A stretch of 62,407 nt of DNA from Planctomycetia bacterium (GCA_021414115.1 JAIOPD010000019.1:1-62407), one strand, 5' to 3'. Counted from the first letter of the stretch, positions 5,458 to 62,407 are shown. Notes: generated by a model not told the origin, from the sequence alone. Translations and numbers: made by a program.

Positions 5458-6612
5458 TCAGGACGACATGCCCACGAACCTGACCACGAGCGAGTCGTAG
5501 CCCAGCGGGCGATCGTAGGCGGCGGTGTGCTCGACCCGGGGCGTCGCCGCGACCAGGTCGATCCGCCGCACACGGTCGCAGAACACGTCGAGCAGTCCGC
5601 GGACGATGGCTCGCGAGTGGGCGGCTCCCAGGCAGAGATGGCCGCCGAACCCGAACGCCACGTGGGGATTCGGCCGCCGGTCGAGCCGCACCTCCCGCGG
5701 ACACTCGAACACCGCCTCGTCGAGGTTTGCTGATGCCCAGCCGAGCGACATCCGTCCTCCCGGAACGACCTCGATTCCATGCACATCGGCTCCTGCCGGA
5801 CAGACGCGGCCAATGTGCGTGAGCGGCATGAAGACGCGAAAAAACTCCTCGCCCGCCAGCACGATCCGGTTGCGGTCCTCCCGGAGGAAGTCGAACGCGG
5901 TCGGCTTGGTCGCGAGGTGCCCGAGCATGCTCGCGACCGTGTGGATGATCGTGTCGCGGCCGCCGGCGAACGTCAGATTTCCGAATCCGACCATCTCGCT
6001 TCGCGTCAGCCGCCGCCCCCGAAACTCGACCTTCGTGAGCAGGCTGAAGAAGTCGTCGCCGGGGGCTGCCTCCGCTCGATCGAAGGCGGCATGGAGATAA
6101 GCGTCGAGCGCGGCCGCCTTCGACTCGCCGTCGCCACCGTGGAAGACGTGCACGCCCCAGTCGATCCACCGCTCGGCCTCCGCCTCGGGCACGCCAAGAA
6201 GCACGGCGAGCGCCCGCGACTGGAGGGGGAGCGCAAAGCCCTCCACGATCTCTGTCGTCTCGCGACCGAGCGACTCGTCGAGCAGCCGGTGGACGATCGC
6301 CTCGATCCGCTTCGCATACGCCGGCTCACGGGCCCGCTGAAAGAGCGGCTCGACCAGATCGCGGTAGTCGGTGTGGTCCGGGGGATCGGTCTCGATCGGC
6401 AGCTGCCGATCATGCCGGAGGTGCTCCTCCGAGGGAATCGGCACGCGGAAGGGCGCATCGGAACTGAAGGTTCGCCAGTCCTTGGCGGCGCGGCGTACCT
6501 CGTCGTGCCTTAGCAGCATCGGAATCGTCTCGTCGCCGGCCGGCAGCGGCAGCACGCCGTCTTTCCGGCGGGCGGCGGCAAACGGATCGGGAATCTCGCT
6601 TTTGTCGCTCAT
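5458..6612 (-). CDS. cytochrome P450
   Basis: A 384-residue soluble bacterial P450. The heme-thiolate loop FGFGGHLCLGAAHSR places the axial Cys at residue 327. The I-helix oxygen-binding motif AGGRDT and the K-helix ExxR (EFFR) are both present, and the N-terminal HDRQLPIETDPPDHTDYR block is typical of class I soluble P450s. It needs external electrons from ferredoxin and a reductase, neither of which is nearby. Its ATG overlaps the stop of the upstream sugar kinase as ATGA, so it is the last gene of a sugar or sugar-acid operon. That context suggests oxidation or O-demethylation of a carbohydrate; this is inference, since the substrate cannot be read from sequence. Confidence 0.93.
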   Translation of the reverse strand: MSDKSEIPDPFAAARRKDGVLPLPAGDETIPMLLRHDEVRRAAKDWRTFSSDAPFRVPIPSEEHLRHDRQLPIETDPPDHTDYRDLVEPLFQRAREPAYAKRIEAIVHRLLDESLGRETTEIVEGFALPLQSRALAVLLGVPEAEAERWIDWGVHVFHGGDGESKAAALDAYLHAAFDRAEAAPGDDFFSLLTKVEFRGRRLTRSEMVGFGNLTFAGGRDTIIHTVASMLGHLATKPTAFDFLREDRNRIVLAGEEFFRVFMPLTHIGRVCPAGADVHGIEVVPGGRMSLGWASANLDEAVFECPREVRLDRRPNPHVAFGFGGHLCLGAAHSRAIVRGLLDVFCDRVRRIDLVAATPRVEHTAAYDRPLGYDSLVVRFVGMSS

Positions 6613-7706
6613 CGCACCACCCGTGCTCCTCCGCCCTTGATCTGCCTTTCCACCTCGGCACGGGTGGCCATGGAGGTGTCGCCGGGGGTCGTGCTTGCCA
6701 GAGCGCCGTGGGCGGCACCGTAGTCGACCGCCTTCTGCGGGCAGTTGAACTCCAGAAACCCGAACGCCAGGCCGCTGGCGAAGCTGTCGCCGCCGCCGAC
6801 GCGGTCGAGGATCTCGAGCTCGGGATACTTGCGGCTGTCGTAGAACTTCCCGTCGTGCCAGCAGATCGCACTCCAGTCGTTCTTCGTCGCCGTGATCACG
6901 CGGCGGAGCGTCGTGGCTGCGACCTTGAAGTTGGGGAACTCCCTGACGGCCGTCTCGATCATCTTGCGAAAGGCGTCGGTCTCGATTTCGCTGATGGCAT
7001 GGTCCACCCCGGCGACCTCGAACCCGAGCGACGCCGTGAAGTCCTCCTCGTTGCCGATCATGACGTCGACGTGCGTGGCGATCTCGCGGTTGACCTCGCG
7101 GGCCTTGGCATGGCCGCCGATGCTCTTCCAGAGGCTCGGACGATAGTTGAGGTCGTAGGAGACGATCGTGCCGTACTTTTTGGCGGCCTTCACCGCTTCG
7201 ATCGTGACCGCGGCGGTCGTTTCGGAGAGCGCGGCGAAGATGCCGCCGGTATGAAACCAGCGGACGCCCAGCGTCCCGAAGAGATGGTCCCAGTCGACGT
7301 CGCCCGGCTTCAACTGGCTGGCTGCGGTGTTGCCGCGGTCCGGCACGCCGACGGCGCCGCGGATGCCGAAACCACGCTCGGTGAAGTTGAGCCCGTTGCG
7401 GACGCTCCGCCCGATGCCGTCGTCAGCCCGCCACTGGATGAAGTCGGTGCACACGCCCCCCTGCATGATGAAGTCTTCGACGAGGTGACCGACCTCGTTG
7501 TCCACGAAGGCGGTCACCACGGCGGTCTTGAGGCCGAAGCACTTCCGCAGGCCACGGGCGACGTTGTATTCGCCGCCCCCCTCCCAGACGTCGAACCGCC
7601 GTGCCGTGCGGATCCGCCCCTCGCCCGGGTCGAGCCGGAGCATGATCTCGCCGAGCGAGACCTCGTCGAAGGTGCAGGAATCCTTGGGCTTGATCGGTAG
7701 CGACAT
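6609..7706 (-). CDS. PfkB-family sugar kinase, KDG-kinase-like
   Basis: A 365-residue ribokinase/PfkB-fold kinase. The N-terminal sugar-binding segment contains GEIMLRLDPGEG and a GGGEYNVARGLRK block typical of 2-keto-3-deoxygluconate kinases. The C-terminal signature DRVGGGDSFASG (residues 301-312) supplies the catalytic Asp307 and the anion hole. AAAGG-type spacing and the overall length match 2-dehydro-3-deoxygluconokinase. The start has AAAGGAC six bases upstream. It sits after two dehydrogenases and before a coupled P450, consistent with phosphorylating a 2-keto-3-deoxy sugar acid. The exact substrate is uncertain, as PfkB members vary. Confidence 0.9.
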   Translation of the reverse strand: MSLPIKPKDSCTFDEVSLGEIMLRLDPGEGRIRTARRFDVWEGGGEYNVARGLRKCFGLKTAVVTAFVDNEVGHLVEDFIMQGGVCTDFIQWRADDGIGRSVRNGLNFTERGFGIRGAVGVPDRGNTAASQLKPGDVDWDHLFGTLGVRWFHTGGIFAALSETTAAVTIEAVKAAKKYGTIVSYDLNYRPSLWKSIGGHAKAREVNREIATHVDVMIGNEEDFTASLGFEVAGVDHAISEIETDAFRKMIETAVREFPNFKVAATTLRRVITATKNDWSAICWHDGKFYDSRKYPELEILDRVGGGDSFASGLAFGFLEFNCPQKAVDYGAAHGALASTTPGDTSMATRAEVERQIKGGGARVVR

Positions 7707-7742
7707 CCGGGGTCCTTTCGGAGGGAAGACGGGTGGAATGGG

Positions 7743-8831
7743 TCAGGCGATCGGCAGGGCGGCGGGATCGAGCGGCGTCACGCCCGCCTCGTGGGCGATC
7801 TCGTTCAACGCATCGACCTCGGCGCGGGAAAAGAGCAGGCCGCCGGCCTGCTCGCTCCGCTTCGCCGCCTCGGCCTCGATCTGCCCCGGCAGCATGCACG
7901 CCTCGTTGCCGTGGCCGAGGACGTCGCCGAGCACCGCCTTGATATTCTCCGCCTGCGAGCGGCCCTTCGCGAACGCCCCGCCACTGAGGGCGTCGGGATG
8001 GATCACCTGGAAGAAGAAGGCACAGCCCTGCTTCTCGCCAACCACGGGGGCCCGGCTGCGAAGCGTCGGCAGCGACCCACCGATGAACGCGGCCACGATC
8101 TCGTTGATCAGCGACAGGCCATAGCCCTTGTGATCGCCGAATGGCAGCAGCGACACCGCCTTGTCAGGATCGGTCGTCGGCTTGCCGTCCTTGTCGACGG
8201 CGGCGTTGGGCGGCAGCGGCTTGCCCTCCCGCTTGAGCTGCTGCACCCGTCCCATGGCGATCACGCTCGTGGCCCAGTCGATCACGATCGGGAATCCGAC
8301 CGCCTCGGTGGTCGGGAAACCCCAGGAATGAGGATTGGTGCCGAGCGTCGGAAAGACGCCCTTGAAAGGCACCACTTCCGCAAGCGATGCCGTGCAGTTG
8401 GTGTAGGCGATGTAGCCCTTCTTCGCCGCCTCCATCACGTAGCCGCCGCCCCACAGATAGTGGAAGGCATTGTCGATCGACACCGTGCCGCAGCCGTACG
8501 TGTCGGCGAGCCTCATGCAGGTGTCGATCGCCTCCCAGGCGACGGCCTGACCGAGCTTCTTCCGAGCGTCCCAGACCTCGGCCGCCTTGAACCGGCTCGG
8601 CAGTCGGCGGATCGACGCCTTGGGCACGCAGCCACCCGCCTTCGAGCCGAAGAGCTCGTCGAGGTGAACCGCCTTGATCGCATTGTGGGTGCGGATGCCG
8701 TGCTTCGTGGCGGCCGTGGCAAGCTTCGCCGCGTGCTCGGCCTCGGCCGCATCGAACCCGCGGTGGAGATAGGCCGAGCGGACGAGCGACTCGTGGGCGG
8801 CGACGGGAACGACGTGGAACGTTTCAGCCAT
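7743..8831 (-). CDS. malate/L-lactate dehydrogenase (Ldh2) family oxidoreductase
   Basis: A 362-residue NAD(P)-dependent 2-hydroxyacid dehydrogenase of the Ldh2 family, which includes malate, ureidoglycolate, sulfolactate and 2,3-diketo-L-gulonate enzymes. Family landmarks are H-G-I-R-T-H-N near residue 45, TYGCGTVSIDNAFHYLWGGG, LGTNPHSWGFPT, and FGDHKGYGLSLINEI near the C-terminal third. The start is MAETFHV; residues before it are not family-like. The upstream dehydrogenase stops four bases before this ATG, so they are one transcription unit with the KDG-kinase-like gene downstream. A role in sugar-acid oxidation fits the context; the precise substrate is unknown. Confidence 0.9.
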   Translation of the reverse strand: MAETFHVVPVAAHESLVRSAYLHRGFDAAEAEHAAKLATAATKHGIRTHNAIKAVHLDELFGSKAGGCVPKASIRRLPSRFKAAEVWDARKKLGQAVAWEAIDTCMRLADTYGCGTVSIDNAFHYLWGGGYVMEAAKKGYIAYTNCTASLAEVVPFKGVFPTLGTNPHSWGFPTTEAVGFPIVIDWATSVIAMGRVQQLKREGKPLPPNAAVDKDGKPTTDPDKAVSLLPFGDHKGYGLSLINEIVAAFIGGSLPTLRSRAPVVGEKQGCAFFFQVIHPDALSGGAFAKGRSQAENIKAVLGDVLGHGNEACMLPGQIEAEAAKRSEQAGGLLFSRAEVDALNEIAHEAGVTPLDPAALPIA

Positions 8832-8835
8832 GATG

Positions 8836-9819
8836 TCAGACGACCTTGGTGACGGGGACGGCGGGGTTGACCTGTGCGAGCGGCTTTTCCCCGTGCATGG
8901 CACGGATGAGGTTGGTGACGGCGGCCATGGCCTGCCGCTGCACGCTCTCGTGGGTCCGCGAGCCAACATGGGGTGTGACGAGGCAGTTGGGAAGTTTTGT
9001 GAGCGGATGGTCGGCCTGGGGCGGCTCCTCGTCGAGCACGTCGGTGCCGTAGCCCCGCACCCTGCCCGATGCGAGCGCGGCGGCCATGTCGGCCGTATTG
9101 ACGATCTCGCCGCGGGCGCAGTTCAAGATGATCACCCCGGGCTTCATCGTCGCGATCGTCTCGGCACGGACAAGATCGCGGGTCTCGGGAGTGAGGTTGG
9201 TGTGGAGCGAGAGATAGTCGGAGGCGGCGAAGATCTCCTCGAGCGTGGCCGCCCTGGGGATGCCCTGCTCCTTGGCAAACGCTTCGTCCCAATAGACGTC
9301 GTAGCCGATCGGCTTCATGCCGAACGCCTTGGCTCGGATCGCCACCTCCTTGCCGATGCGTCCCATCCCCACGATCCCGATCGTCTTGTCGAGGAGCTCG
9401 TGGCCGGTTTGCCGCTTCCAGCCGCCGCTGCGGACGGAGTCGGTGTGGAACAGGAGACTCTTCTCGAGCGCGAGAAGCAGGAGAAACGTGTGCTCGGCGA
9501 CGGTCGTGTGGTTGACTCCCGGCGTGAACAGGAGCGGGATGCCAAACTCCGTGCAGGCGGCGACGTCGATCTTGTCGACGCCGATGCCGTATTTGCTGAG
9601 CACTTTGAGCCGCGGCCGGGCCTTCTCCAGCACGGCCCGGGTGATCGCATCGTCGCCGCAGATGTATCCGTCGATCGCGCCGACCTGGGCCAGTGTGTCG
9701 GCTTCGGAGAGCGGTCCGCGGGCGCGGATCACCTCCCAGCCGGTGGCCGCGAGCATGTCGTGATGCGGGCCGGGCGTGTCTTGAAACGAGGTCGTCGTGA
9801 GCAGGATACGCGGCGTCAT
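8836..9819 (-). CDS. D-isomer-specific 2-hydroxyacid dehydrogenase, SerA-like
   Basis: A 327-residue NAD-dependent dehydrogenase. The nucleotide-binding motif GIVGMGRIGKEVA with a downstream Asp is clear. The catalytic Arg (NCARGEIVN), Glu (DVLDEEPP) and His (TPHVGSRTHES) segments follow in order. Similarity is to 3-phosphoglycerate dehydrogenase but there is no ACT or other regulatory C-terminal domain. GAGGAAC lies eight bases before the ATG. It is the first gene of the operon that continues with Ldh2, the PfkB kinase and the P450, so it is more likely a sugar-acid catabolic reductase than the biosynthetic SerA. Confidence 0.9.
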   Translation of the reverse strand: MTPRILLTTTSFQDTPGPHHDMLAATGWEVIRARGPLSEADTLAQVGAIDGYICGDDAITRAVLEKARPRLKVLSKYGIGVDKIDVAACTEFGIPLLFTPGVNHTTVAEHTFLLLLALEKSLLFHTDSVRSGGWKRQTGHELLDKTIGIVGMGRIGKEVAIRAKAFGMKPIGYDVYWDEAFAKEQGIPRAATLEEIFAASDYLSLHTNLTPETRDLVRAETIATMKPGVIILNCARGEIVNTADMAAALASGRVRGYGTDVLDEEPPQADHPLTKLPNCLVTPHVGSRTHESVQRQAMAAVTNLIRAMHGEKPLAQVNPAVPVTKVV

Positions 9820-13872: not shown

Positions 13873-15297
13873 TCACACCTCGTCGCGATACTCGAACTTA
13901 TACTTGCCCGGATTGGGCACCGGATAGCGGCCCTCCGCGTCGGCGACGAGCGGGGCGGACGATTCCATGGTGAGATGCTCCACGCCGGCCGTGAGATCGT
14001 CCGGGCAGTCGAGCATCTCCTGGTAGGTGACGGGCCGGCCGGTGTGGGCGGAGAACCGGCCCATGGCCGTGACAAGGCTCGCCTCGGCGCCTCGAACCGC
14101 CTCGTTGTAGGGCGTGTCGGCCGCGATCGCCGCCACGAAGTGCTCCCATTCGCGGCGGTACGGGCTCGGCTCCGGCTGCGCTGCCGCCCAGAGAATGTTG
14201 TCCTTGGAGACGTCCTGGGATTTGTAGATCGTCGACTTGGCGGGCGAGTGGCCGCTCGTGGAGATCGTAAACGCCCCCTTCGATCCCTGCCCGTAGACGC
14301 CGAAATGCTGGTGGCAGCCGGGGATCAAGCGATTCTCGTAGAAGAACTTCGCTCCGTCGGCGAACGTGTATTCGATCGCATACACGTCGAAGTTCTGGTC
14401 GGTGATCTTTCCCTTCACGTGCCGGCCGCCGATCGCATCGGCCGTCACCGGCCATGCGCCCTTCATCATCGCGACCTCGTCGATGTGATGGATGCAGTAG
14501 TCGCTGAAGATGCCGCCGCTCGCCCAGAGGAAGTTGTGAAACCGTTTCACCTGCCAGAGCAGTTCGCTCGTGTCCTTCGGCCCGGGCGACAGGTCGAGGT
14601 TGTGCGCGGGGTTCTGGTTGCGGTAGCCCCGAAACGCGATCAGGTCGCCAGCTTCTCCCGCGCGAAGCCGTTCGAGCAGCTCGATGCGGCGATCACAGTG
14701 CCGGCACATCAGCCCCACCGCGACCTTGAGATTCTTGGCGTCGGCCTGCGCGGCGAGCTCGATGATCCGCTTCGTGCTCGGCCCGTCGATGGAGACCGGT
14801 TTCTCCATGAAAACGTGGACACCCTTCTCGATCGCCTGCGCAAAATGGACCGCCCGGAATGCCGGCGGTGTGGCAAAGATCGCGATCCCGCCAGGCGGCA
14901 GCGTGTCGATCGCCTGACGGTAGGCGTCGAAGCCGACGAAGGTGCGGTCGTCGGGAACATCGACGCGATCCTTGAACTGCTCGCCGAGCGACCGCTTCAC
15001 CGCGCTCATCCGCCCGGGAAAGACGTCGGCCATCGCGGTGAGCGTGACCCGCCCGCCGGGAGCGTTGAAGGCGTCTACGATCGCGCCGCCGCCACGGCCA
15101 CCACAGCCGATGAGGGCCGCCTTGATCTCGTCGCTCCCGGCGACATGCACGCCTCCCGGGGGCGTGACCGCAGCCGGAGGCGTGTCGCTGCCCGACTCGG
15201 CGGCGCGGGCAAGGCCACCGGTGGCGAGTGCAGCGCCGACGGAGCCCAGAAAGTCGCGGCGGCTGGCAGCACTGGAACGGGGAGAAACTGGTTTCAT
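13873..15297 (-). CDS. Tat-exported Gfo/Idh/MocA family oxidoreductase
   Basis: A 474-residue NAD(P)-dependent oxidoreductase of the type abundant in planctomycetes. It begins with a twin-arginine signal (SRRDFLG and a hydrophobic, Ala-rich run). The Rossmann motif ALIGCGGRGGG, the EKPVSIDG segment with the catalytic Lys region, and the C-terminal alpha/beta domain (IHHIDEVAMMKGAWP) are clear. Tat export of a cofactor-loaded enzyme is usual for this subgroup. It lies 28 bases after the aldolase-like gene on the same strand, which makes it part of the divergent sugar locus. The substrate is unknown, probably a sugar or sugar derivative; some members use a bound NAD(H) for glycoside cleavage. 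Confidence 0.9.
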   Translation of the reverse strand: MKPVSPRSSAASRRDFLGSVGAALATGGLARAAESGSDTPPAAVTPPGGVHVAGSDEIKAALIGCGGRGGGAIVDAFNAPGGRVTLTAMADVFPGRMSAVKRSLGEQFKDRVDVPDDRTFVGFDAYRQAIDTLPPGGIAIFATPPAFRAVHFAQAIEKGVHVFMEKPVSIDGPSTKRIIELAAQADAKNLKVAVGLMCRHCDRRIELLERLRAGEAGDLIAFRGYRNQNPAHNLDLSPGPKDTSELLWQVKRFHNFLWASGGIFSDYCIHHIDEVAMMKGAWPVTADAIGGRHVKGKITDQNFDVYAIEYTFADGAKFFYENRLIPGCHQHFGVYGQGSKGAFTISTSGHSPAKSTIYKSQDVSKDNILWAAAQPEPSPYRREWEHFVAAIAADTPYNEAVRGAEASLVTAMGRFSAHTGRPVTYQEMLDCPDDLTAGVEHLTMESSAPLVADAEGRYPVPNPGKYKFEYRDEV

Positions 15298-15325: not shown

Positions 15326-16384
15326 TCAGCCACCATAGGCGGTGGCATTGTGCGTGATCAGCAGGTCGTCGTCGAGCGAGCGGTGCGGCGCGAGTCCGAG
15401 GCGGGCGAGCGCGGCATGATAGGCCCGCACCCCCTCTGCCGCCGACAGTTCATCGTCGGCGACGGCGCGCAGGCAGCGAACAAACTCCACCTGGTGCTCG
15501 GCGGCGTTGATTTTGCGGCCGAAGAGGGCGACCCGGGCCCCGTGACGCTTCGACTCCGCGACCAGGGAGAAGGCGTCGTGCGTGGTGCCCGCGGCGCCGC
15601 CGAGAATCCCGACGATCAGCGAACGGTCGTATGAGGCCAGCTGTTCCGTCACCTCCGGCCCGAGGTAGGGAATCTTGAGGAACACGGGCCTGCCGGCCCT
15701 GGGCACGCCCGCCAGCGCTCGCACGACATGATCGGCCAAGAACCGCGCCGTGCCGAGCGGCGCGGCGTCGGCCGCTGCCGGCATCGCATTGGGGTAGAAG
15801 ACCTCGAGAAAGTGCCGGAAGCCCGAGAGCTCCGCGTCGCGGCGAAACCGGCCGTAGGCTTCGAGCATGTCGCGGTCGAGGCGGGCGTCGCCGTTGAGGG
15901 TCATGGAGAACAGACCCAGGTCGACGGCCGGCCGGCCGATGCGGGCTGGCTCGAGCCGGCCCCACTGGACGTGGTCGATCGCGGCAGTGGAGAAGGGCAA
16001 AGCCGACTGCCGGGTGTACGAGCCCGACCCCGACGCAAGCCAGATGTCCGTCGTGTCATTCATCCGCACGGCCGGCGTCACGGCCGAGGCGGTGAACAGG
16101 CTTTCGTCGATGGCGAGCACCTCACTGGTGCTCGCGCTCATGAGCATCACGTCGACGAGGCCCTGCTGAACGATCTCCCGAATGCTGGCCCGATACTCGT
16201 CGATCGACCGGAAAGGGCCACGGCTCCGGTCAGCCCCTGTCCGGAGGCCGGGAGCGGCGAGCCCAAACGCCATGTCGGCATCTTTCGCGTCGGCGAGGAT
16301 GAAGTCGCGGCAGCCTGGCGAGTCGAGCAGCCTGCGCAGCTTGAGATCGAGGGATTTGTGAGGCGTGGTGAGAAGTGTGCTCAT
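15326..16384 (-). CDS. class I aldolase-like TIM-barrel protein
   Basis: A 352-residue protein resembling DhnA/LacD-type class I aldolases. The segment GRPVFLKIPYLGPEV offers a candidate Schiff-base Lys, and LIVGILGGAAGTTHDAF followed by GARVALFGRKI resembles the phosphate-binding end of such barrels. ADAKDADMAFG near residues 31-41 is a striking, probably conserved N-terminal block. There is no signal peptide. It is the first gene of the minus arm of the sugar locus, divergent from the xylose-isomerase-like gene. Assignment to a specific aldolase is uncertain, since I compared motifs only; a non-aldolase barrel is possible. Confidence 0.65.
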   Translation of the reverse strand: MSTLLTTPHKSLDLKLRRLLDSPGCRDFILADAKDADMAFGLAAPGLRTGADRSRGPFRSIDEYRASIREIVQQGLVDVMLMSASTSEVLAIDESLFTASAVTPAVRMNDTTDIWLASGSGSYTRQSALPFSTAAIDHVQWGRLEPARIGRPAVDLGLFSMTLNGDARLDRDMLEAYGRFRRDAELSGFRHFLEVFYPNAMPAAADAAPLGTARFLADHVVRALAGVPRAGRPVFLKIPYLGPEVTEQLASYDRSLIVGILGGAAGTTHDAFSLVAESKRHGARVALFGRKINAAEHQVEFVRCLRAVADDELSAAEGVRAYHAALARLGLAPHRSLDDDLLITHNATAYGG

Positions 16385-16542
16385 GCGGAGGAGTCTAGCC
16401 GGGACTCGCGAGCGGGTGGCCAAGGCGACGTGGAAAACGTAAAGCTTTTATGGGATTCTGAAAAGTCGTCGCGGTATGGTCAACGCATCGGGCGAGGTCT
16501 CACTTGTCCTCCCGCCGTCTGATCACCCATCACGAGAACATC
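16385..16542. promoter_or_regulatory. divergent promoter/operator region of the sugar locus
   Basis: A gap between the aldolase-like and xylose-isomerase-like genes. An AT-rich island in otherwise GC-rich DNA spans about 16432-16467: GGAAAACGTAAAGCTTTTA followed by TGGGATTCTGAAAAG. It contains the palindrome AAAGCTTT and two G-A-A-A-A blocks. XylR-type regulators bind such AT-rich sites, so this is a candidate operator for the XylR encoded nearby. The island is seen in the sequence; binding is inferred. Confidence 0.5.
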
Positions 16543-17577
16543 ATGCCCGCCGCCTACCGCTTCTCCATCGGGCCCTGGAACATCCATCCCGGCGCCGATC
16601 CGTTTGGACCTCCCGTGAGGCCGCCCGTTCCGTTCGATCAGGTCCTCGACGCCGCCGTCGCCCTGGGCTTCGAGGGCATTCAGTTTCACGACGACGACGC
16701 CGTGCCCGACCTCGAGAGCCTTGCCCCCGCCGCGATCGCCCGCGAGGCCGAGGCGATGCGCCGCCGTCTCGCCGACCAGGGACTCGTCGCCGAGTTCGTG
16801 GCGCCGCGGCTCTGGGAGCACGCCCACGGCATCGATGGCGGCTACACCAGCAACGACCCGTCCGCCCGGCGGTGGGCGATCGAGCGGTCCAAACGCTGCG
16901 TCGACGTGGCTCTGGCCCTGGGCTGCGACCTCATCGTGATGTGGCCCGCCCGGGAGGGGACGGCCGTGCGTGAGAGCAAGAATCCCGTGCAGGCCTCGCG
17001 GCAAGTGCTGGAGGCCATCGACGCCATCCTGTTGGCGGCGCCGAACGTGCGAATCGCGATCGAGCCCAAGCCCAACGAGCCAGTCGATCACGCGTTCGTG
17101 CCGACGATCGGCCACGCGCTGTCGCTGGGGGCGAGGTCCGTCGCACCAGACCGAGTGGGTGTATTGATCGAGACGGCCCACGCGATCCTCGCGGGCCTCG
17201 ACCCGTCCGACGAGATGGGCTTCGCCCTCGCCGCCGGCAAGCTCTGGAGCGTGCATCTCAACGATCAAAACGGCCTGAAGTTCGACCAGGACAAGGTCTT
17301 CGGAGCCGCCAATCTCCGCGGGGCCTTCGACCAGGTGCGGGTCTTGGAAATGGCGGGCTACGGTGACACGGGGGCGTTCATCGGGTTCGACGTCAAGGCG
17401 CAGCGTACCCAGCGGGCGGACTCGGCCACCGCCCACCTCGCCACGAGCAAGCGGGTCTTTCTGGCGCTCGTGGAGAAGGTGCGTTCTTTTCCGCAGACGA
17501 TCGCCGATCAATGCATTGCCGACCGAGACTACGAGTCGCTGGAGCGACTCGTTCTGGAACACCTCCTTGCCGTGTGA
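16543..17577 (+). CDS. xylA: xylose isomerase-like protein (class I)
   Basis: A 344-residue TIM-barrel protein with the XylA active site. The catalytic His is in QFHDDD (His49). The metal ligands map to Glu174 in EPKPNEP, Glu210 and His213 in IETAH, Asp241, Asp248 and Asp250 in LNDQNGLKFDQD, and Asp283 in GFDVK; Lys176 is also present. MWPAREG replaces the usual WGGREG. It is shorter than the Streptomyces (about 388) or E. coli (about 440) enzymes, mainly at the C-terminus. The family interconverts D-xylose and D-xylulose. The ATG has only a weak GAGAAC site; an upstream TTG lacks support. A xylR gene follows by 18 bases. Another aldose substrate cannot be excluded. Confidence 0.8.
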   Translation: MPAAYRFSIGPWNIHPGADPFGPPVRPPVPFDQVLDAAVALGFEGIQFHDDDAVPDLESLAPAAIAREAEAMRRRLADQGLVAEFVAPRLWEHAHGIDGGYTSNDPSARRWAIERSKRCVDVALALGCDLIVMWPAREGTAVRESKNPVQASRQVLEAIDAILLAAPNVRIAIEPKPNEPVDHAFVPTIGHALSLGARSVAPDRVGVLIETAHAILAGLDPSDEMGFALAAGKLWSVHLNDQNGLKFDQDKVFGAANLRGAFDQVRVLEMAGYGDTGAFIGFDVKAQRTQRADSATAHLATSKRVFLALVEKVRSFPQTIADQCIADRDYESLERLVLEHLLAV

Positions 17578-17595
17578 CCGCGTTGCGTGTGCCGC

Positions 17596-18825
17596 ATGCC
17601 CGATGCCCCGCTCGTCGCCGTGATCCTCGATGCCGCGCGGCCGTATGACCGGCTCATCATCGGCGGCGTCGCCCGCTACGTCCGCGAGCAGGCACCGTCG
17701 TGGAGCCTGTATGTCGAGGAGGATCCACTCGAGAAGCTTCCCGACCTGAAGCGGTGGCATGGCGATGGGATCATCGCCAACTTCGACGACCGCCGGGTCG
17801 CCGCGGCGCTCCGCGACTTGAAACTGCCGATCGTCGGCGTCGGCGGTGGCTACGGCTGGTTCGACCCGGCTTCGGGCATCCCCTACGTCTTCACCGACAA
17901 CCGGGCCATTGGCCGCCTCGGTGCGGCCCATCTTCTGGCCTGCGGCTTTGCGGAGTTTGCCTTCTACGGCTCTCCACGGACGTCGACGGATGGATGGTCA
18001 AAGGAGCGAGCCGTCGGTTTCGAGGCCGCGTGTCGTGAGGCCGGCCGGCCCTGTCACATCCATACGGGCCGTCAGACCACTGCCCGTCGCTGGCAGGAGC
18101 TGCAGCGGGATCTTCGAGCCTGGATCGCGAAGCTGCCGAAGCCGATCGGTCTGATGGCGTGCAACGACGTCAGGGCGCGCCACGTGCTCGAGGCCTGTCG
18201 AACGCTCGGACTACGGGTGCCCGACGACGTCGCCGTGTTGGGCGTCGACAACGACGAGATGATCTGCGAGCTCACCAGCCCGCCCCTTTCCAGCATCGAC
18301 CAGGCAGCGCGACAGATCGGCTACGAAGCGGCGACCCTTCTCGGCAGAATGTTGAGTCGCGGCAGGTCGGCGGCGCGGTCCGCTCGCGTGGTCGTGCCGC
18401 CGATCGGCGTGGTGCCCCGGATGTCGACCGACACCATGGCCACGACCGACGACGCCGTCGCCCACACCCTGCACGCGCTGCGATCCAGGCAGCTCCAGAG
18501 GCCCGATATCACCGCGCTCGCCGAGGAGGTCTGCCTCTCTCGGCCGGGACTCGAGGCCCGCTTCAGGGCCGTGGTGGGGCGATCGATCCACGACGAGTCG
18601 GTGCGCATCCGCGTGGCGGCGATCCGCAGACTCATCACGCAGACCGACCTTCCGCTCAAGGCGATCTCCGCCCGGGCGGGGTTTGGGTCGGTGCAATACA
18701 TGACCACGTTCCTCCATCGTCATACCGGCACCACGCCGGCACGACTGCGACTTCTGGAGCGCAGCCCTGCCAACCCCGCCGCCGAGACGGTGCCCGCGTC
18801 CGATCCTTTCTCACGAGGCCAGTGA
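17596..18825 (+). CDS. xylR: XylR-type AraC-family transcriptional regulator
   Basis: A 409-residue regulator with the E. coli XylR layout: a LacI/periplasmic-binding-like sugar sensor (about residues 1-270, with YDRLIIGGVARYVRE, VFTDNRAIGRLGAAHLLACGF and DDVAVLGVDNDE) and a C-terminal AraC helix-turn-helix domain (about 285-385, SRPGLEARFRAVVGRSI and GFGSVQYMTTFLHRHTGTTP). XylR activates xylose genes on binding the sugar. It lies between the isomerase-like gene and a PfkB kinase; its stop overlaps the kinase start as TGATG. A GTG three codons upstream is an alternative start, and neither has a strong Shine-Dalgarno sequence. Confidence 0.9.
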   Translation: MPDAPLVAVILDAARPYDRLIIGGVARYVREQAPSWSLYVEEDPLEKLPDLKRWHGDGIIANFDDRRVAAALRDLKLPIVGVGGGYGWFDPASGIPYVFTDNRAIGRLGAAHLLACGFAEFAFYGSPRTSTDGWSKERAVGFEAACREAGRPCHIHTGRQTTARRWQELQRDLRAWIAKLPKPIGLMACNDVRARHVLEACRTLGLRVPDDVAVLGVDNDEMICELTSPPLSSIDQAARQIGYEAATLLGRMLSRGRSAARSARVVVPPIGVVPRMSTDTMATTDDAVAHTLHALRSRQLQRPDITALAEEVCLSRPGLEARFRAVVGRSIHDESVRIRVAAIRRLITQTDLPLKAISARAGFGSVQYMTTFLHRHTGTTPARLRLLERSPANPAAETVPASDPFSRGQ

Positions 18826-19775
18826 TGAGTTCACCGACCGATTGCATCGTCTGTGGCACGTGCGTGGCCGACCTCATCGTGCGGCCGGTGCCGCTGGAAC
18901 AGCCCGTCGGCGGCGGTCGGCTGTTTCACGTCGACCCGCTCGCCGTCACGACGGGCGGCATCGTCTGCAACACCGGCGTGGCCATGCGCCGGCTCGGCGC
19001 CACGGTCGAGGTCGCCGCCTTCGTCGGCGATGACCTCTGGGGCAGGGAGATTCGCAGCGGACTCTTGGCCGAGGGAATCGTCGTGGAGGCGCTCGAAGGG
19101 CATCCTTCGGCTGCAAGCAGCACGACGGCCGTGCTGATCGACGCCGGCAGCGAGCGGAGTTTCGCCCACCACGTCGGGGCCGCCGGAATGCTCGACCTGG
19201 CGTTCGTTCGTCGTCACGTCGCCCGCTTCGCCCGCAGCCGGATCGCGGTGGTGGGCTACGTGGGCCTGCTGCCGGCGCTCGAACGTGATCTCGTCGAAGC
19301 CGTCGCCTTGATCCGGGACACCGGCTGTCGCGTGGTGCTCGAAACCGGCGGATCCGGTGGTTCGATTCTGGACGTTGCCCCCGCCCTCCGGCACACCGAC
19401 GTCTTCGTTCCGAGCCACGACGAGGCGCGGCACCAGACCGGGCTCGACGACCCGCGCGACATCATCGCCTGCTACCGGGGCCACGGCGCCGCGGGAATCG
19501 TCGGAGTGAAGTGCGGTACGCGGGGCTCCGTCGTGAGTCCCTCGCCCGGCGTGGTCATCGAGGTGCCGTGCATCGTGCCGCCCGCACCTGTCATCGACAC
19601 CACCGGCGCGGGCGATTCGTTTCTGGCCGGCCTGCTCGTGGGGCTGCTCCGCGGCATGCCCGTGGCCGAGGCCGCGCGGCTCGGCGCGGCCACCGCCGCG
19701 TGCTGCGTGACCAGGGCCGGTGCCACGGCCGGGCTCCGTGGATACGACGAGACGCTGCGACTGGCGCGAGGCTGA
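18825..19775 (+). CDS. PfkB-family carbohydrate kinase
   Basis: A 316-residue ribokinase-fold kinase. It begins with CGTCVADLIVRPVP, carries a GGIVCNTGVAMRRLGA substrate block, and ends with the PfkB signature DTTGAGDSFLAGL containing the catalytic Asp. GAGG precedes the ATG, which overlaps the xylR stop. In the position where xylulokinase (XylB, FGGY fold) is expected, this locus has a PfkB kinase. PfkB kinases often phosphorylate ketoses at C1 or act on ribose, fructose or keto-deoxy sugars, so phosphorylation of xylulose at C1 is a possible but untested role. Confidence 0.9.
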   Translation: MSSPTDCIVCGTCVADLIVRPVPLEQPVGGGRLFHVDPLAVTTGGIVCNTGVAMRRLGATVEVAAFVGDDLWGREIRSGLLAEGIVVEALEGHPSAASSTTAVLIDAGSERSFAHHVGAAGMLDLAFVRRHVARFARSRIAVVGYVGLLPALERDLVEAVALIRDTGCRVVLETGGSGGSILDVAPALRHTDVFVPSHDEARHQTGLDDPRDIIACYRGHGAAGIVGVKCGTRGSVVSPSPGVVIEVPCIVPPAPVIDTTGAGDSFLAGLLVGLLRGMPVAEAARLGAATAACCVTRAGATAGLRGYDETLRLARG

Positions 19776-55407: not shown

Positions 55408-58400
55408 ATGGTCTGGACTATTTTTTCACGGACGTGGCTTCGTCGTCGGCCGGCCTTGCGGGCACTCCGCAAGCAGCGGGCCCAGCGGAGAAGCGATCGC
55501 TGGACGCGGTTTTTCGGCAGTGAGCCGCTGGAACTTCGCCGGCTGATGGCGGCGTTCACCTACGACTCGGTCAACGACCGGCTCTCGATCGATCTCAACA
55601 CGTCGAGTGAGCAGCTCACGCTCACGAGTTCGGGCGACGGTAACTACGTCTTCACTTCGTCGGGCACGTTCACGGGCACGAATGAGAGCGGACTTTCGGG
55701 CGCTGGCACCAACACGCTGACGATCACGAGTTCGCTGGCCCTCACGGACGTGGCGATCGGTGATTCTGCCGCCGGTACGAAAGTCACCTTCGGCTCAAAT
55801 ACTGGCAGCTACGTCGACAACTTCGAGATCACGCTCGACGCGACGGCAGCGGCAGCGTCCCTCGCGCTCTCCGCTGACACCTCGTTCTCGACGGCTTCCT
55901 TGACGGCCACCGTGGACTACGGCATCAGCCTCACGGCCAATCTCTCGGCCACGTCCGGTTCGCTCTCGCTCACATCGACTGCAGGGGCCATCACGCTGTC
56001 GGCGTCAAAGTCCATCACCACGACCACGGCGGGCGACATCACGCTCTCCGCGAGTGGCGCCATCACCAACATCGCTTCCGTGACTTCCATCACGGCGGCC
56101 GGCAACGTGTCGATCGACGCGACGGGCGCGCTCAACCTCCCGGCGATCACGTCGGGAGGCACGCTCGAGGTGCAGGCCACCGGCGGCCTGACGCAGGCCG
56201 CAGCGATCAACGCCGGCGGCGACTCGTTCTTCGGCGGGGCGTCGGTCACGCTCTCCAACGCTACGAATAACTTCCAGGGCGCCGTATCGGCCCAATCGTC
56301 GTCGTCCGGCAACATCACGCTCGTCGATTCCGGTGATCTGCAACTTGGCGCGATCTCGCAGGCGTCGAACCGTGCTGGCAGCCTCAACGTCACAGCCGGT
56401 GGCAGCATTACCCAGGCCGCGAGTACGACGATCGTGACTGGCACGGGCGCCATCACGTTCACGGCCGGCAGTGGCAAGAACATCCTCATCGGCAACACGG
56501 GCAATCAGCTCAGTAACGCCACCACCACGTTCAAGGCCTCGAGCGGCAACCTCGCCGATCTCACGATCACCGACATCACCGCCTTCACGATCCAGCCGGA
56601 TCTCGCCATCACCGGCGATCTGGCGATCACGGCGGGCGGGGCGATCACCGACGCGGGCAACGTGGCAGTAGGCGGCGCGGCGGCGTTCACCACCACGGCT
56701 GCGAATGGCGCGATCACGCTCGACGGTACCAGCACCTACGGCGGCGCCCTGAGCGTATCGACGCATGGCACCGGCAACGCCACGGTCACCAACGTCGTCG
56801 GCGACCTCGACCTGGGCGCCAGCACGGTGGGCGGCAGGTTCGTCGCGTCGGTGGCCGGCAACATCACCGACTCCGGCCCCGTCGCCGTCACGGGAACGAC
56901 CGCCATTACCACGACGGCCAACAATGGCTCGGTGGTCCTCAATGAGCCGGGCTCCAAGTTCACCGGCGCCGTCAACGTCACCACCAACGGCAGCGGTAGC
57001 ACGACGCTCACCGGGCTGCAGACGGCGATCAATCTCGGCAACGTCACCACCAACAACCTCACGATCTCCGCTACTGGGGCAATCACCGACTCCGGCGTGC
57101 TCAACGTGTCGGGCGCCTCCTCCTTCACCACCACGGCCCTCGGCTCGTCGATCACGATCAACAATCCCGGCAGTTCGTTCGTGGGCCCGATCAAGGCGGC
57201 TGCCGACGGCGCGGGCAGCGTCACGATCTCCGGCTTCACGAACGACATCGCGTTGGGTCAGGTGACCTTCGGCACCAGCCTGACGGTGTCGACGACAGGC
57301 AACATCTCCGTGACGCCGTCGTCCAATCTCACGTCCACCGGGTTCGGCTTGGGCTCGATCGCGCTGACATCGACGGCCGGCAACATCACACTCAACTCGA
57401 CGCTCGCCACGTCGGGCGGCGGTCTGACGCTCACTGCTGCGACGGGCATCGCGGGTGATGCCAATGGCATCCTCTCTTCCGTCGCCCCGATCAATACCGG
57501 CCTCGCCTCGGGCGGCATCGTGCTGAACGTCACCGGCACCGGAAACGTCTCGATCGGCGGCCACATCAACGCCCGCGGCGCGAACAGCAACATGTCGCAG
57601 GGCGGTCAGGGCGGTGCCGTGCAGATCACCACGAGCGATGGCACGATCGCCGTGATGGCGATCGACACGTTCGGCGGTGACGCCACCCCCGGTGCCGGCA
57701 AGGTCAACGGTGGCAACGGCGGCCTGATCAGCATCGACGCCAACACGGGCGTGAGCCCAACGTCGGCCGGTACCATCTCGATCGGCGGCGACTTCAACAG
57801 CGCAGGCGGTACGGGCAACGACGGGAATCCGCAGGGTCCCGGCGGCAACATCCTGATCTACGACAACGTCATCCTCACCAATAGCGTCACGCTGGCCACC
57901 GGGGCGACCACCGGCAACATCTTCTTCAACAAGCGGATCGACTCCGACGCCACGCCCCGCGCGCTGACGCTCGTGGCCGGCGAGGGCGGCATGGAGATGA
58001 ACGGAGCCGCCGGCGACTCTCAGCCACTCCTGAGCCTTACCTCCACGAGCACTGGCGGCATCATTCGGCAAAACATCGCCACGGTCGGCTCGGGTGGCAT
58101 CTCGGTGTCGGCCGGTGCCGGCCTCACGATCGGCGGCCAGGGCACCACGGTGAATTTCAATACGATCGCCAACGGCACGCCGGCCCAAAACGGCCCCGTC
58201 TACCTGAGCGCCACGACCACGACGGTGGACGACGACTTCGTGATCACCCGCGGCAACGGTGCCGTGACGTTCACGAAGTATCTGACCGGCGTCGGCACGC
58301 CGAACCTCACGATCACGACCAACGGCACGGTGGCCCCGAACCGCTACGGCGACGTCAACTTCGGCGACAGCGCCACGGGGCTCGGCAACATCACGATGAC

Positions 58401-61400
58401 GAATGTCGACGACCTCACGGCAAGCTCGTCCGGCGGCGCCTCGGGCACGTCGATTTCGGCACAAAGCCTGGTCTATACGAATCGCGGCACGGGCAACGTG
58501 AGTTTCACGGGATCCCAGTCCTACAGTGCGGTGGGCGGCGTCAACGTCGAGACCTATGGCTCGGTGTCGATCGGCAGCTCCGTCACGACTTCGGCGACCG
58601 GGGCCCCGATCAAGTTTTTCGCCGAAACCCTGCCGCTGACGATCGCCGGCACCTACGGCAACATCAACACAGTGAACGGCGTCGTCGAACTGACCGGCAA
58701 GGGCGTAAATCAGGGCAGCCAGATCAGCGTCAACGCCGGCAATGAGACGATTCTGCTCGATGGGCAGGGCACGACGATCGTGCTCTCCGGCACGCTCACC
58801 ACGTCGAGCGCCTCGAACACGGCGATTCTCATCCGCGACGCGTCGACGGTGTCGCTGCGGGGCACGAACGTTCCCAACGGCCAGCTCCAGATCGGCACTC
58901 CGGGAATTTCGCCAGCCGACGTCACGGGTGACGTGTCGCAGAGCAATGAATACGGCGTCGGTGTCATCGCCAAGTACGTGTCGGCAAACACGGGCGGCAA
59001 CATCACCATCTACTCGGCTTACAACCAAATCGAGAATCTGCGCACGTTCAAGCTCGGCGGCGCCCTGGCCATCAATGACTCATCGGGCGGCCTGAACGTC
59101 CTCGAGGACCTCACGGCCACGTCGATTGACCTCGCCACGAATGGCGGCGCGCTCAACATCAGCACGAGCAACATCACTTCCACGGCGGGCAACATCATCC
59201 TCCGCGGCGCAGGGGTCACGCAGGCGACCGGCTCCAACGTCAGCTCCGGCTCCGGCACCATCTTCCTGTCCGGCGCGCCCTATAACGGCGGCAGCGGCAA
59301 CGTGTCGCTGGCGGGCACGCTCCACTCGACCAACAACAACACGTGCTCGGCCATCGACATCCGGAACGCCTGGCCGCTGCAGCTCGGCGACATTCGGGTG
59401 TTGGACGGCGGAATCTCAATCCAGCCCATCGAGGGCTGGCTCGCACCAGTGGGGCCGGTCACCCAGGCCGCCGGCACCGTGATCAAGGCCAGAAATCTCT
59501 CAGTCCGAGCGGCCGGCTCGGTCACGCTGACTAACGACAACGAGATCGATTTCGTGGGCAGCACCTGCCTCGACACCTTGGCGGACGGCACGATCAACAT
59601 CAGGGACGTGACCGGGAATCTGACGCTCGCTCGCGACGTCACGACGGCAAACTACGGATCCTCGATCACGCTCAATGCCACCGGCGGCACGCTCGACCTG
59701 GCCGGCTACAACGTCCGCGGAACCGGTGTTTCTCTCTTGGGCGTCGGCGTCAAGAGCACGGGCGGCACGATCGGCATCTATGGCAACATCCTCGTCGATG
59801 CCAACGACGGCGCCATCGACCTGACAGGATCCTCGATCACCACGACAAGTACATCCTCGACCGCCGTGCAGTTGATCGACTCGGCTTTCAGCGTGGTGCT
59901 CGGCAGCATCACGACTGGCACCGGCGGCACGCTCGTCCTCGGCGGCAGCGGCGGCGACGTGCTGGGCGGCAATGTCTCGCAGGGCTCGGGGTCGATCAAC
60001 GTCGGCACGGTCACGGGCAACGCCAACGGCTCGGTGATCCTCGACAAGACCGGCAATGTCGTCACGACGCTGTCGAATCTCACCGCCGGTGGCGCGATCA
60101 CGCTCTATGACAGCGATGCCGGCCTCGCGGTAACTGGCGTTGTTACGAACGGCGACAAGGGGCTGATAAACCTCACCACACAGACGACGCTCTCGCTGAC
60201 CGGCAGCCTGAACGGCTCGGGTGCTACACTCCGGGCACTCGATCTAGGGTTAGGCCAAGTGACGCTGGCCGGTGACGTCACGGCCAACACCGGCAACGTG
60301 ACGCTGGTCGCCGCCGCCAAGACGGTGACCCAGACGGCCGGCATCATCTCCACCACCGGGTCGGTCACGGGTTCCGCCTACTCCGGGCTCACGCTCAACC
60401 AGAACAACACGATCGGTGGCCTGGGGCCCTACACGGTCGATGTGACCGGCAACATTTCCGTGAACGACGTTTCCGGGGGTCTGAATCTCACCGGTGACGT
60501 CAAGGTGGTCGCCAGCGGCACTGTCACCATCACCACGGCAGGTGGGCCTTTGAACCTCTCCACCTACGACGTGACGACGTCCGGCAACGTGACGCTCACG
60601 GGTGTCGGCATCAACCAATCCGCCGGCTCGCTCGTGGATGCGACGGGCAGCCTGATCGCGATCGACGCCAACGGCGGGCCGATCGCCATGACGGGCAACC
60701 TCACGACAACGAGCCCGCTGGCCACGGCCCTCGTGATCCGGGACGCAACAACGGCAGCGCTCGGCAACATCAGCGTGACGTCGGGCACCGTCACGATCGG
60801 CGTGTCGAAGGACATCACCGGCGCAGTCACGCAGTCTGTGGGCACGACGATCGCCGCGCAAAATCTCACGATCTCGGCCAACGATTCCGTCACGCTCGAC
60901 AGTGCTGGTAACGCCATCGACAACCTTCTCGCAGTCTCGACGGGTGGAAACTTCACGCTCGTCGACGGGTCCGGGGGTCTGATCTTCAAAGGCAACACGA
61001 CGTCCGGCGGGGGCGTCACGATCACGACCGCCGAGCAGGCGCTGTCGCTGGGCATCTACGACATCGCGGCCTCCGGCGACGTCAGCCTCACCGGCTTCGG
61101 GATCATTCAGGGTACATCGGCGTCCGACATCGACGCCGGCGGCGGCAACATCACGCTGACTGGTCTAGGCGACCAGTTCGTGCTTCCCGGAACGATCAAG
61201 ACGACGAGCAACTCTTCGCTGGCCGTTCTCATCCAAAACGGCACGAATCTGCAGTTCAACAGCATCGTCACCGGAGCGAACGGCACCACGACGTTTGGTG
61301 GAGCGGGCGCCAACGGGCTGGACGGAACCGTGACCCAAACGCTGAAGAGTTCGATCCTCCAGACCGGCACGCTTGTCGGCAACTCGGGCCAGGTCGCGCT

Positions 61401-62407
61401 CTCCAACGCCAATAACACCCTGGCGTTTCTCGGCCCGTACACGAGCAGCGATGCCTTCGCCCTCAACGACAGCACCGGCGGGATCACCTTCTCGGGTGAT
61501 GTGACCACCGGAGGCACGACGACGATCACCACCCCCGGCAATCTGTCGATGGGCATCTACGATCTGCTCGCCACCGGCTCGCAGGTCACGCTCACCGGCG
61601 TGAATGTCACGCAGGACTCGACGTTCGGCCGCGTCCTCGCCGCCACGACGCTCGTCGCCGCGGGCTCGGGCATCATCGACCTCGCCAGCGCTGCGAACGA
61701 CTTCACTGGCCGCGTCACGCTCATGGCCACCGGCGCCTACGCGTCGATCCGCGACGCCAACAACCTCCTGCTCGATAACCTGAGCGGCAACATCGGGCCC
61801 AACACGTCCATCAAGGCCGTCGCCGGCGGCACGCTGTCGCTGGCGACCGAGCCGCTCAACACCGGCACCGGTTACATCTGGCTCGAGTCGCAGGGGGGCA
61901 ATCTGCAGCCCACGGGCTCGCTGACCACCTCGACGGGCAACATCGACCTGCGGGCCCGCGACAACCTGCAGGTGTATTTCGCCGTGGAGTCGACGTCGGC
62001 GGGCAACATCACGCTCGTCGGCGGCAGCATCGACCAGACCGGCAACGCCGACCTCACGACCACCGGCGCGGGCACGATCAGCGTGACCGCCGATGGCACC
62101 GGCTCCCGGGGCAACATCACGATGGTGCCGGGCACCGTCTACTCGACCGGCTCGGGCGATATCACGCTCTCCGCCGCCACGTTCATCGACGTGGGCAAAG
62201 TGGTGACTACTGGCAACATCACCGCCACGGCGACCTCCGGCGCGATCACCGACGTCTGGACGGGTGACGAGGCGAATTTCAACGGCAGCGTCGTGGCCCT
62301 GTCGGCCGGTAGCGGCATTGGCACGTCGGGCGACCCGATCGAGACCGATTCGAACGTGCTCCGCGCCACGACCGGCACCGGCGGCATCTTCATCAACGAG
62401 CTCGGCG
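55408..62407 (+). CDS. giant Ser/Thr/Gly-rich adhesin, incomplete at the 3' end
   Basis: At least 2333 residues, still open at the window end. GGAG lies before the ATG. A basic N-terminus (RTWLRRRPALRALRKQRAQR) precedes EPLELRRLMA at residues 39-48, a LEPR-XLL-like motif that marks very large planctomycete surface proteins. The body is almost all beta-strand repeats rich in Gly, Ser, Thr, Asn and Val, with ITLTG/GNITL/TTSGNV units as in filamentous-haemagglutinin-type beta-helices. From about 59 kb there are modules of about 165 residues carrying an NDSSGGL-like block and a GIYDIAASGDVSLTGFGI-like block. Only a few Cys are present. It is likely a cell-surface or matrix adhesin, and a candidate target of the glycosyltransferase upstream. 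Confidence 0.9.
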   Translation, partial: MVWTIFSRTWLRRRPALRALRKQRAQRRSDRWTRFFGSEPLELRRLMAAFTYDSVNDRLSIDLNTSSEQLTLTSSGDGNYVFTSSGTFTGTNESGLSGAGTNTLTITSSLALTDVAIGDSAAGTKVTFGSNTGSYVDNFEITLDATAAAASLALSADTSFSTASLTATVDYGISLTANLSATSGSLSLTSTAGAITLSASKSITTTTAGDITLSASGAITNIASVTSITAAGNVSIDATGALNLPAITSGGTLEVQATGGLTQAAAINAGGDSFFGGASVTLSNATNNFQGAVSAQSSSSGNITLVDSGDLQLGAISQASNRAGSLNVTAGGSITQAASTTIVTGTGAITFTAGSGKNILIGNTGNQLSNATTTFKASSGNLADLTITDITAFTIQPDLAITGDLAITAGGAITDAGNVAVGGAAAFTTTAANGAITLDGTSTYGGALSVSTHGTGNATVTNVVGDLDLGASTVGGRFVASVAGNITDSGPVAVTGTTAITTTANNGSVVLNEPGSKFTGAVNVTTNGSGSTTLTGLQTAINLGNVTTNNLTISATGAITDSGVLNVSGASSFTTTALGSSITINNPGSSFVGPIKAAADGAGSVTISGFTNDIALGQVTFGTSLTVSTTGNISVTPSSNLTSTGFGLGSIALTSTAGNITLNSTLATSGGGLTLTAATGIAGDANGILSSVAPINTGLASGGIVLNVTGTGNVSIGGHINARGANSNMSQGGQGGAVQITTSDGTIAVMAIDTFGGDATPGAGKVNGGNGGLISIDANTGVSPTSAGTISIGGDFNSAGGTGNDGNPQGPGGNILIYDNVILTNSVTLATGATTGNIFFNKRIDSDATPRALTLVAGEGGMEMNGAAGDSQPLLSLTSTSTGGIIRQNIATVGSGGISVSAGAGLTIGGQGTTVNFNTIANGTPAQNGPVYLSATTTTVDDDFVITRGNGAVTFTKYLTGVGTPNLTITTNGTVAPNRYGDVNFGDSATGLGNITMTNVDDLTASSSGGASGTSISAQSLVYTNRGTGNVSFTGSQSYSAVGGVNVETYGSVSIGSSVTTSATGAPIKFFAETLPLTIAGTYGNINTVNGVVELTGKGVNQGSQISVNAGNETILLDGQGTTIVLSGTLTTSSASNTAILIRDASTVSLRGTNVPNGQLQIGTPGISPADVTGDVSQSNEYGVGVIAKYVSANTGGNITIYSAYNQIENLRTFKLGGALAINDSSGGLNVLEDLTATSIDLATNGGALNISTSNITSTAGNIILRGAGVTQATGSNVSSGSGTIFLSGAPYNGGSGNVSLAGTLHSTNNNTCSAIDIRNAWPLQLGDIRVLDGGISIQPIEGWLAPVGPVTQAAGTVIKARNLSVRAAGSVTLTNDNEIDFVGSTCLDTLADGTINIRDVTGNLTLARDVTTANYGSSITLNATGGTLDLAGYNVRGTGVSLLGVGVKSTGGTIGIYGNILVDANDGAIDLTGSSITTTSTSSTAVQLIDSAFSVVLGSITTGTGGTLVLGGSGGDVLGGNVSQGSGSINVGTVTGNANGSVILDKTGNVVTTLSNLTAGGAITLYDSDAGLAVTGVVTNGDKGLINLTTQTTLSLTGSLNGSGATLRALDLGLGQVTLAGDVTANTGNVTLVAAAKTVTQTAGIISTTGSVTGSAYSGLTLNQNNTIGGLGPYTVDVTGNISVNDVSGGLNLTGDVKVVASGTVTITTAGGPLNLSTYDVTTSGNVTLTGVGINQSAGSLVDATGSLIAIDANGGPIAMTGNLTTTSPLATALVIRDATTAALGNISVTSGTVTIGVSKDITGAVTQSVGTTIAAQNLTISANDSVTLDSAGNAIDNLLAVSTGGNFTLVDGSGGLIFKGNTTSGGGVTITTAEQALSLGIYDIAASGDVSLTGFGIIQGTSASDIDAGGGNITLTGLGDQFVLPGTIKTTSNSSLAVLIQNGTNLQFNSIVTGANGTTTFGGAGANGLDGTVTQTLKSSILQTGTLVGNSGQVALSNANNTLAFLGPYTSSDAFALNDSTGGITFSGDVTTGGTTTITTPGNLSMGIYDLLATGSQVTLTGVNVTQDSTFGRVLAATTLVAAGSGIIDLASAANDFTGRVTLMATGAYASIRDANNLLLDNLSGNIGPNTSIKAVAGGTLSLATEPLNTGTGYIWLESQGGNLQPTGSLTTSTGNIDLRARDNLQVYFAVESTSAGNITLVGGSIDQTGNADLTTTGAGTISVTADGTGSRGNITMVPGTVYSTGSGDITLSAATFIDVGKVVTTGNITATATSGAITDVWTGDEANFNGSVVALSAGSGIGTSGDPIETDSNVLRATTGTGGIFINELG

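Follow-up and report, generated by a model that had tools for sequence, protein, structure and literature searches.

A XylR-linked kinase-aldolase locus in a planctomycete, a candidate module for ketose-1-phosphate cleavage

The window analysed here is a stretch of 62,407 nucleotides from a Planctomycetia bacterium (GCA_021414115.1, JAIOPD010000019.1:1-62407). It corresponds to contig C19 in a genome of 4.35 Mb that is 95% complete and whose nearest named relatives are for the most part planctomycete metagenome-assembled genomes. Between positions 15326 and 19775 it encodes an aldolase-like protein, an isomerase of the xylose isomerase superfamily, a XylR-type regulator and a PfkB-type sugar kinase. 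We attribute to this locus, with moderate confidence, the function of a XylR-type-regulated module for ketose-1-phosphate cleavage. We infer a reaction order in which the isomerase would convert an aldose to a ketose, the kinase would phosphorylate the ketose, most likely at C1, and the aldolase, of class I and acting through a Schiff base on K237, would split the ketose-1-phosphate into dihydroxyacetone phosphate (DHAP) and a short aldehyde. The isomerase would serve as a feeder, found in roughly half of the genomes with the kinase-aldolase pair, and the XylR-type protein, on a palindrome between the two transcription units, would control both. Support for the kinase and class I aldolase route comes from the predicted fold, from the co-occurrence and linkage of the genes and from a shared operator. 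An earlier note, made from the sequence alone, had proposed an isomerase-kinase-aldolase route through xylulose-1-phosphate; the kinase and aldolase steps under XylR-type control are retained here, whereas xylose as the sugar is not, given the distinct isomerase subfamily and the canonical XylA and XylB-like kinases encoded elsewhere in the genome.

The aldolase, the kinase and their putative shared control

The aldolase-like open reading frame (15326..16384, minus strand, 352 amino acids) belongs to an unannotated family, and its assignment to the DHAP-type class I aldolases rests on predicted fold and conserved residues. None of the 62 family members examined had a Pfam match, PF01791 (DeoC/LacD) being absent even at E 0.1; a search of PDB sequences with the family profile returned no match, and the single weak NCBIfam match was to ADH synthase (E 0.004). 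The earlier description as class-I-aldolase-like thus finds no backing in the sequence libraries and draws its support from the predicted fold. For the AlphaFold2 model (pLDDT 87), the top 50 structural matches were all class I aldolases of the DHAP type. The best was ADH synthase with bound DHAP (2qji; Z 23.2, root-mean-square deviation 3.0, 253 residues aligned), followed by an archaeal fructose-bisphosphate (FBP) aldolase (Z 22.1), LsrF (22.0), sulfohexulose-1-phosphate aldolase (20.8), YihT (20.7), LacD (20.6) and human aldolase B (19.0).

In class I aldolases the Schiff-base lysine is located on strand 6, and the phosphate of DHAP is bound after strands 7 and 8. In the model, K237, invariant in the 62 sequences, lies on the sixth barrel strand and E194 on strand 5; strand 7 is followed by the pair GG262-263 and strand 8 by the pair GR289-290. 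K237 would then be the Schiff-base lysine, and the barrel fold, the strand-6 lysine and the phosphate motifs of the model support a class I (Schiff-base) DHAP aldolase mechanism. The same three features are found in the DhnA/LacD-type class I aldolases of PF01791 (archaeal FBP aldolase, ADH synthase, LsrF), from which the present family differs in having no sequence match to that Pfam family or to a solved structure, and in its own ADAKDADM motif on strand 1. Relatives of the aldolase are widespread in planctomycetes, with 561 found in one scan.

The PfkB/ribokinase-fold sugar kinase (18825..19775, plus strand, 316 amino acids) is coupled to xylR, as had been noted earlier, its ATG overlapping the stop codon of the regulator gene (TGATG). 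It scored 138.8 bits on PF00294 (cut-off 25.8), carries an invariant D258-T-T-G-A-G-D264 motif and reached neither the fructokinase nor the 1-PFK cut-off. A ribokinase fold is predicted, and the nearest PDB sequence is that of Escherichia coli YdjH (E 4e-42, profile). YdjH phosphorylates C1 of keto-sugar acids, a role for which the papers searched offered no confirmation. In a fold search, ribokinase (the top match), YdjH, YihV, IolC and KDG kinase were all close; as a test of C1 versus C5 phosphorylation the search was discarded, since these kinases matched alike.

The window's family was represented by 72 genomes, of which 51 had the aldolase, 50 the kinase and 28 the isomerase. When only family genomes at least 90% complete were counted, 27 had both aldolase and kinase, two the aldolase only, one the kinase only and four neither (P 0.0015, without correction for relatedness). 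Of the 44 genomes having both, 23 had the kinase no more than 12 kb away from the aldolase. The isomerase was only ever seen together with the aldolase (28 of 28 genomes), at a distance of at most 8 kb in 26 of them. Across 392 genomes of the phylum the aldolase was also present in five of the seven that carry a close kinase (hypergeometric P 4e-5). The cluster is not a chance arrangement, and its core pair is the kinase and the aldolase.

Related pairings occur further afield. L139 (8007-13429) and L147 carry, in a row, the aldolase, a second type of PfkB kinase, a lyxose-isomerase-family protein and a GH38 alpha-mannosidase; the row in L160 consists of the isomerase, the aldolase and a kinase of this second type; and in L238-L240, L242 and L243 the isomerase subfamily has as neighbours a Gfo/Idh gene and another class I aldolase, one of the true DhnA type that matches PF01791 and is closest to ADH synthase. 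These pairings suggest that isomerase and class I aldolase were brought together on more than one occasion. The row in L139 and L147 is accompanied by a divergent DeoR-type regulator and could represent a mannose route via fructose-1-phosphate. In L238-L240, L242 and L243 a GntR-like regulator is conserved with the DhnA-type aldolase, Gfo/Idh and isomerase genes, and no kinase is found nearby.

The regulator gene (17587..18825, plus strand, with its start at GTG 17587 or ATG 17596) encodes a LacI-like ligand domain and an AraC-type helix-turn-helix. Its product aligned over the full length with E. coli XylR (4fe4), 134 of 377 aligned residues being identical (36%, E 2e-78), and matched PF22177 (86.8 bits, cut-off 27) and HTH_18. 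At the level of sequence and domains, the earlier designation as a true XylR is therefore upheld. Four further regulators with the XylR domain, all over the Pfam cut-off, are encoded on contigs C45, C70, C78 and C79, so that the genome holds five in total.

The AT-rich, operator-like region noted earlier between the divergent genes corresponds to a dip in GC content (0.48) that contains a real palindrome, CGTAAAGCTTTTATG, at 16438..16452. It is adjoined by a sigma-70-like promoter match directed at the aldolase (16455..16483, minus strand), identified as a consensus match only. The consensus of the palindrome in the divergent promoter is CGTAAA-N3-TTTAYG. With at most two mismatches to CGTAAA-N3-TTTACG, it was found in 10 of 12 loci with a linked xylR and in none of 13 without (Fisher P 2e-5); shuffled sequences gave an expectation of 0.4 per group at up to three mismatches. 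The relaxed pattern CGTAMANNNTTTAYG occurred once per genome in six whole genomes, always in the divergent promoter of the module, where base composition predicts 1.7 matches over all six together. No second site, and hence no sign of a wider regulon, was detected in these six genomes, and single-strand folding of the operator revealed nothing notable. The XylR-type protein would accordingly be the candidate to bind the palindrome at 16438-16452.

Several observations weigh against ketose-1-phosphate cleavage as the function of the locus. None of the module enzymes has a characterised close homologue, and the fold match of the kinase fails to separate C1 from C5/C6 kinases. Comparison of the aldolase profile with that of the true DhnA family was weak (probability 6.5%, mainly in the region of the phosphate motifs), so that the class and substrate of the aldolase rest on predicted structure and conserved residues. 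The kinase and the aldolase are distant or on separate contigs in 21 of the 44 genomes with both, and the isomerase is absent from about half of the genomes with the pair. Finally, the operator motif was first spotted by eye in the same sequences, which makes the contrast between the groups of loci the real test, and the XylR-negative loci of that contrast are partly related to one another.

The isomerase and the identity of the sugar

The isomerase (16543..17577, plus strand, 344 amino acids) was placed in a subfamily of its own by profile and alignment. It belongs to the xylose isomerase superfamily and reached neither of the curated NCBIfam cut-offs for XylA, scoring 202 bits on TIGR02631 (cut-off 447) and 62 bits on TIGR02630 (cut-off 533). 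In an alignment with Streptomyces-type xylose isomerase, the catalytic residues H54, D57 and K183 correspond to H49, D52 and K176, and the protein keeps H49, D52, E174, K176, E210, H213, D248, D250 and D283. The earlier note had every metal ligand in place; this is not the case, as six of the seven (E181, E217, H220, D245, D255, D257 and D287 of xylose isomerase) are kept and D245 is replaced by His238. In addition, T90, N92 and F94 of xylose isomerase become A87, R89 and W91. We take D245 to act as a metal ligand in xylose isomerase and the other three positions to line its active site. A87, R89, W91 and H238 are invariant in 46 of 46 isomerase sequences, down to 40% identity. Because these four active-site changes are invariant, the isomerase is, as judged from sequence, a separate subfamily of the XylA superfamily, whose sugar is not to be assumed.

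A canonical XylA is encoded elsewhere in the genome (706 bits on TIGR02630). The statement that no FGGY xylulokinase is present holds at the locus, where no FGGY gene was found, and fails genome-wide. The genome encodes four FGGY kinases: a GlpK above cut-off, a rhamnulokinase-like protein and two XylB-like proteins, which are best matched by the NCBIfam XylB model at 249 and 219 bits, under its cut-off of 380, and for which a PDB search gave E. coli XylB (2itm) and a xylulokinase (5vm1) as top hits. With these and the canonical xylA, the genome check for xylB proposed earlier does not leave the locus as the sole candidate xylose route, and a conventional route outside the window is plausible.

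Three sugars or classes of sugar come into question for the module, each of them tentatively and with the same likelihood. In the xylose-specific form, xylose would be converted via xylulose to xylulose-1-phosphate and then to DHAP and glycolaldehyde. E. coli and yeast have both been equipped with a synthetic pathway of this kind (PMC5029101, PMC4918971, PMC4559361). It matches the proposed logic of the module, in which a DHAP aldolase acts on the product of a ketose C1 kinase; it was built from unrelated parts, whereas in the module the substrate is putative and a normal xylose route is probably encoded as well. The regulator's resemblance to E. coli XylR across its length, the superfamily of the isomerase and the kinase-aldolase pair all agree with xylose. 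We nevertheless consider it an unlikely substrate, in view of the active-site changes and low XylA scores of the isomerase, the canonical XylA and XylB-like FGGY kinases elsewhere, and the presence of five XylR-type regulators in the genome, which means that the regulator type alone is no proof of xylose.

Alternatively, an aldohexose (glucose, mannose) or fructose could be channelled into fructose-1-phosphate and split into DHAP and glyceraldehyde, as by ketohexokinase and aldolase B in the liver. This vertebrate route likewise pairs a kinase of the PfkB fold with a class I aldolase that yields DHAP; the module differs from it in being bacterial, in its linked XylR-type regulator and its added isomerase, and aldolase B is about 9% identical to the module aldolase in the structural alignment. 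That about half of the kinase- and aldolase-containing genomes lack the isomerase would be expected if a common ketose entered directly; the lyxose-isomerase-family protein and alpha-mannosidase of L139 and L147 suggest a conversion of mannose to fructose, and the structural matches include human aldolase B. The XylR-type regulation in the window points instead to a pentose, and the kinase falls under the fructokinase and 1-PFK cut-offs, which leaves this option doubtful as well.

The third candidate is a rarer or charged sugar, for example a uronate, deoxy- or sulfo-sugar, which the invariance of Arg89 and His238 in the isomerase would reflect. It is suggested by the new Arg and Trp, both invariant, at positions that belong to the substrate pocket in xylose isomerase, by the proximity of the kinase to YdjH, by YihV- and YihT-like folds among the matches, and by a GntP-type permease that adjoins the aldolase in some relatives. 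The sulfo-Embden-Meyerhof-Parnas pathway (YihS isomerase, YihV PfkB kinase, YihT class I aldolase) resembles the module in its order of enzyme types, and the structures of YihV and YihT match the models of the module's kinase and aldolase; the aldolase shows no sequence-level match to YihT, and the isomerase type and regulator of that pathway differ from those of the module. Since the window's own module has no dedicated transporter or hydrolase, and the pocket position of Arg89 is taken from alignment only, we regard this reading, too, as possible rather than probable.

A conventional operon for xylose, with the PfkB protein serving as an atypical xylulokinase that acts at C5 and with an unrelated aldolase, would fit the terminal-carbon phosphorylation common among PfkB kinases and the top structural match to ribokinase, but is very unlikely given that the aldolase co-occurs with the kinase and its promoter shares the XylR-linked operator, that canonical XylA and XylB-like kinases are encoded in the genome, and that the kinase-aldolase core pair occurs without the isomerase.

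If the chemistry of the ketose-1-phosphate cleavage module is as proposed, bacteria would run, with its own regulator and operator, a split that has been built by hand for xylose conversion.

Microcompartment-linked homologues of the aldolase

Aldolase homologues outside the window's family are mostly 385-431 amino acids long and carry a variable linker followed by a conserved C-terminal tail, for example PDFSKMTPAEKxxWNLxRWKRILG. At least 10 distinct loci of distant planctomycetes (L155, L165, L140, L143, L144, L113, L176, L178, L182 and L183) have such a homologue in or beside a bacterial microcompartment (BMC) locus with shell or aldehyde-dehydrogenase genes. In L155, BMC shell proteins and aldehyde dehydrogenase were confirmed by Pfam, and no class II aldolase was found in its genome, the completeness of which is not established. 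The tail was present in all BMC-linked homologues counted, two of them having been missed by the pattern and read by eye. It was absent from 40 of 40 members of the window's family, including the window's aldolase, and from 8 of 12 kinase-linked homologues elsewhere. Because it is conserved behind a variable linker and linked with BMC loci, the tail appears targeting-like. Its hydrophobic moment was like that of two BMC-type tails of the same genome, single sequences not exceeding shuffles.

The known signature of PVM-type BMCs is the class II aldolase PF00596 (PMC4207490, PMC8217296). An aldehyde-releasing aldolase is their signature step, and homologues of the module aldolase sit in such loci. 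The window's aldolase differs in being tail-less and outside a BMC locus: no BMC shell protein is encoded at the window locus, which does not belong to the PVM type, and the genome's own PVM-type locus, with its class II aldolase, is on contig C65. One could speculate that the aldolase family began as BMC cargo bearing a targeting tail, acting in some BMCs as the only aldolase, and that in one family it left the organelle, lost the tail and became cytosolic in a XylR-controlled, natural xylulose-1-phosphate pathway; we hold this scenario to be rather improbable. The aldolase family, which has no Pfam entry, would connect the cleavage of sugars at microcompartments with its counterpart beyond them, so that the role of the BMC shell could be tested directly by comparing tailed with tail-less enzymes.

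Neighbouring genes

The five-gene layout described earlier (aldolase, isomerase, XylR, PfkB and Gfo/Idh/MocA) was recovered at the same positions. The Gfo/Idh/MocA oxidoreductase (13873..15297, minus strand), with a twin-arginine-type N-terminus, lies immediately downstream of the aldolase and shares its strand, both genes being divergent from the isomerase side as stated before. As it is kept as a neighbour of the aldolase in only part of the window's family, its role is probably accessory. In many relatives (L042:10363-12154, L044, L047 and others) a RidA-family protein is encoded after the aldolase or the Gfo gene, and in three relatives a GntP-type permease stands behind the RidA-family gene. 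Elsewhere in the window, at 6609-9819 on the minus strand, a second PfkB-like kinase (6609-7706) with two dehydrogenase-like genes upstream is conserved in L041, and a very long open reading frame of at least 2287 amino acids (55546-62406, plus strand) extends to the window end.

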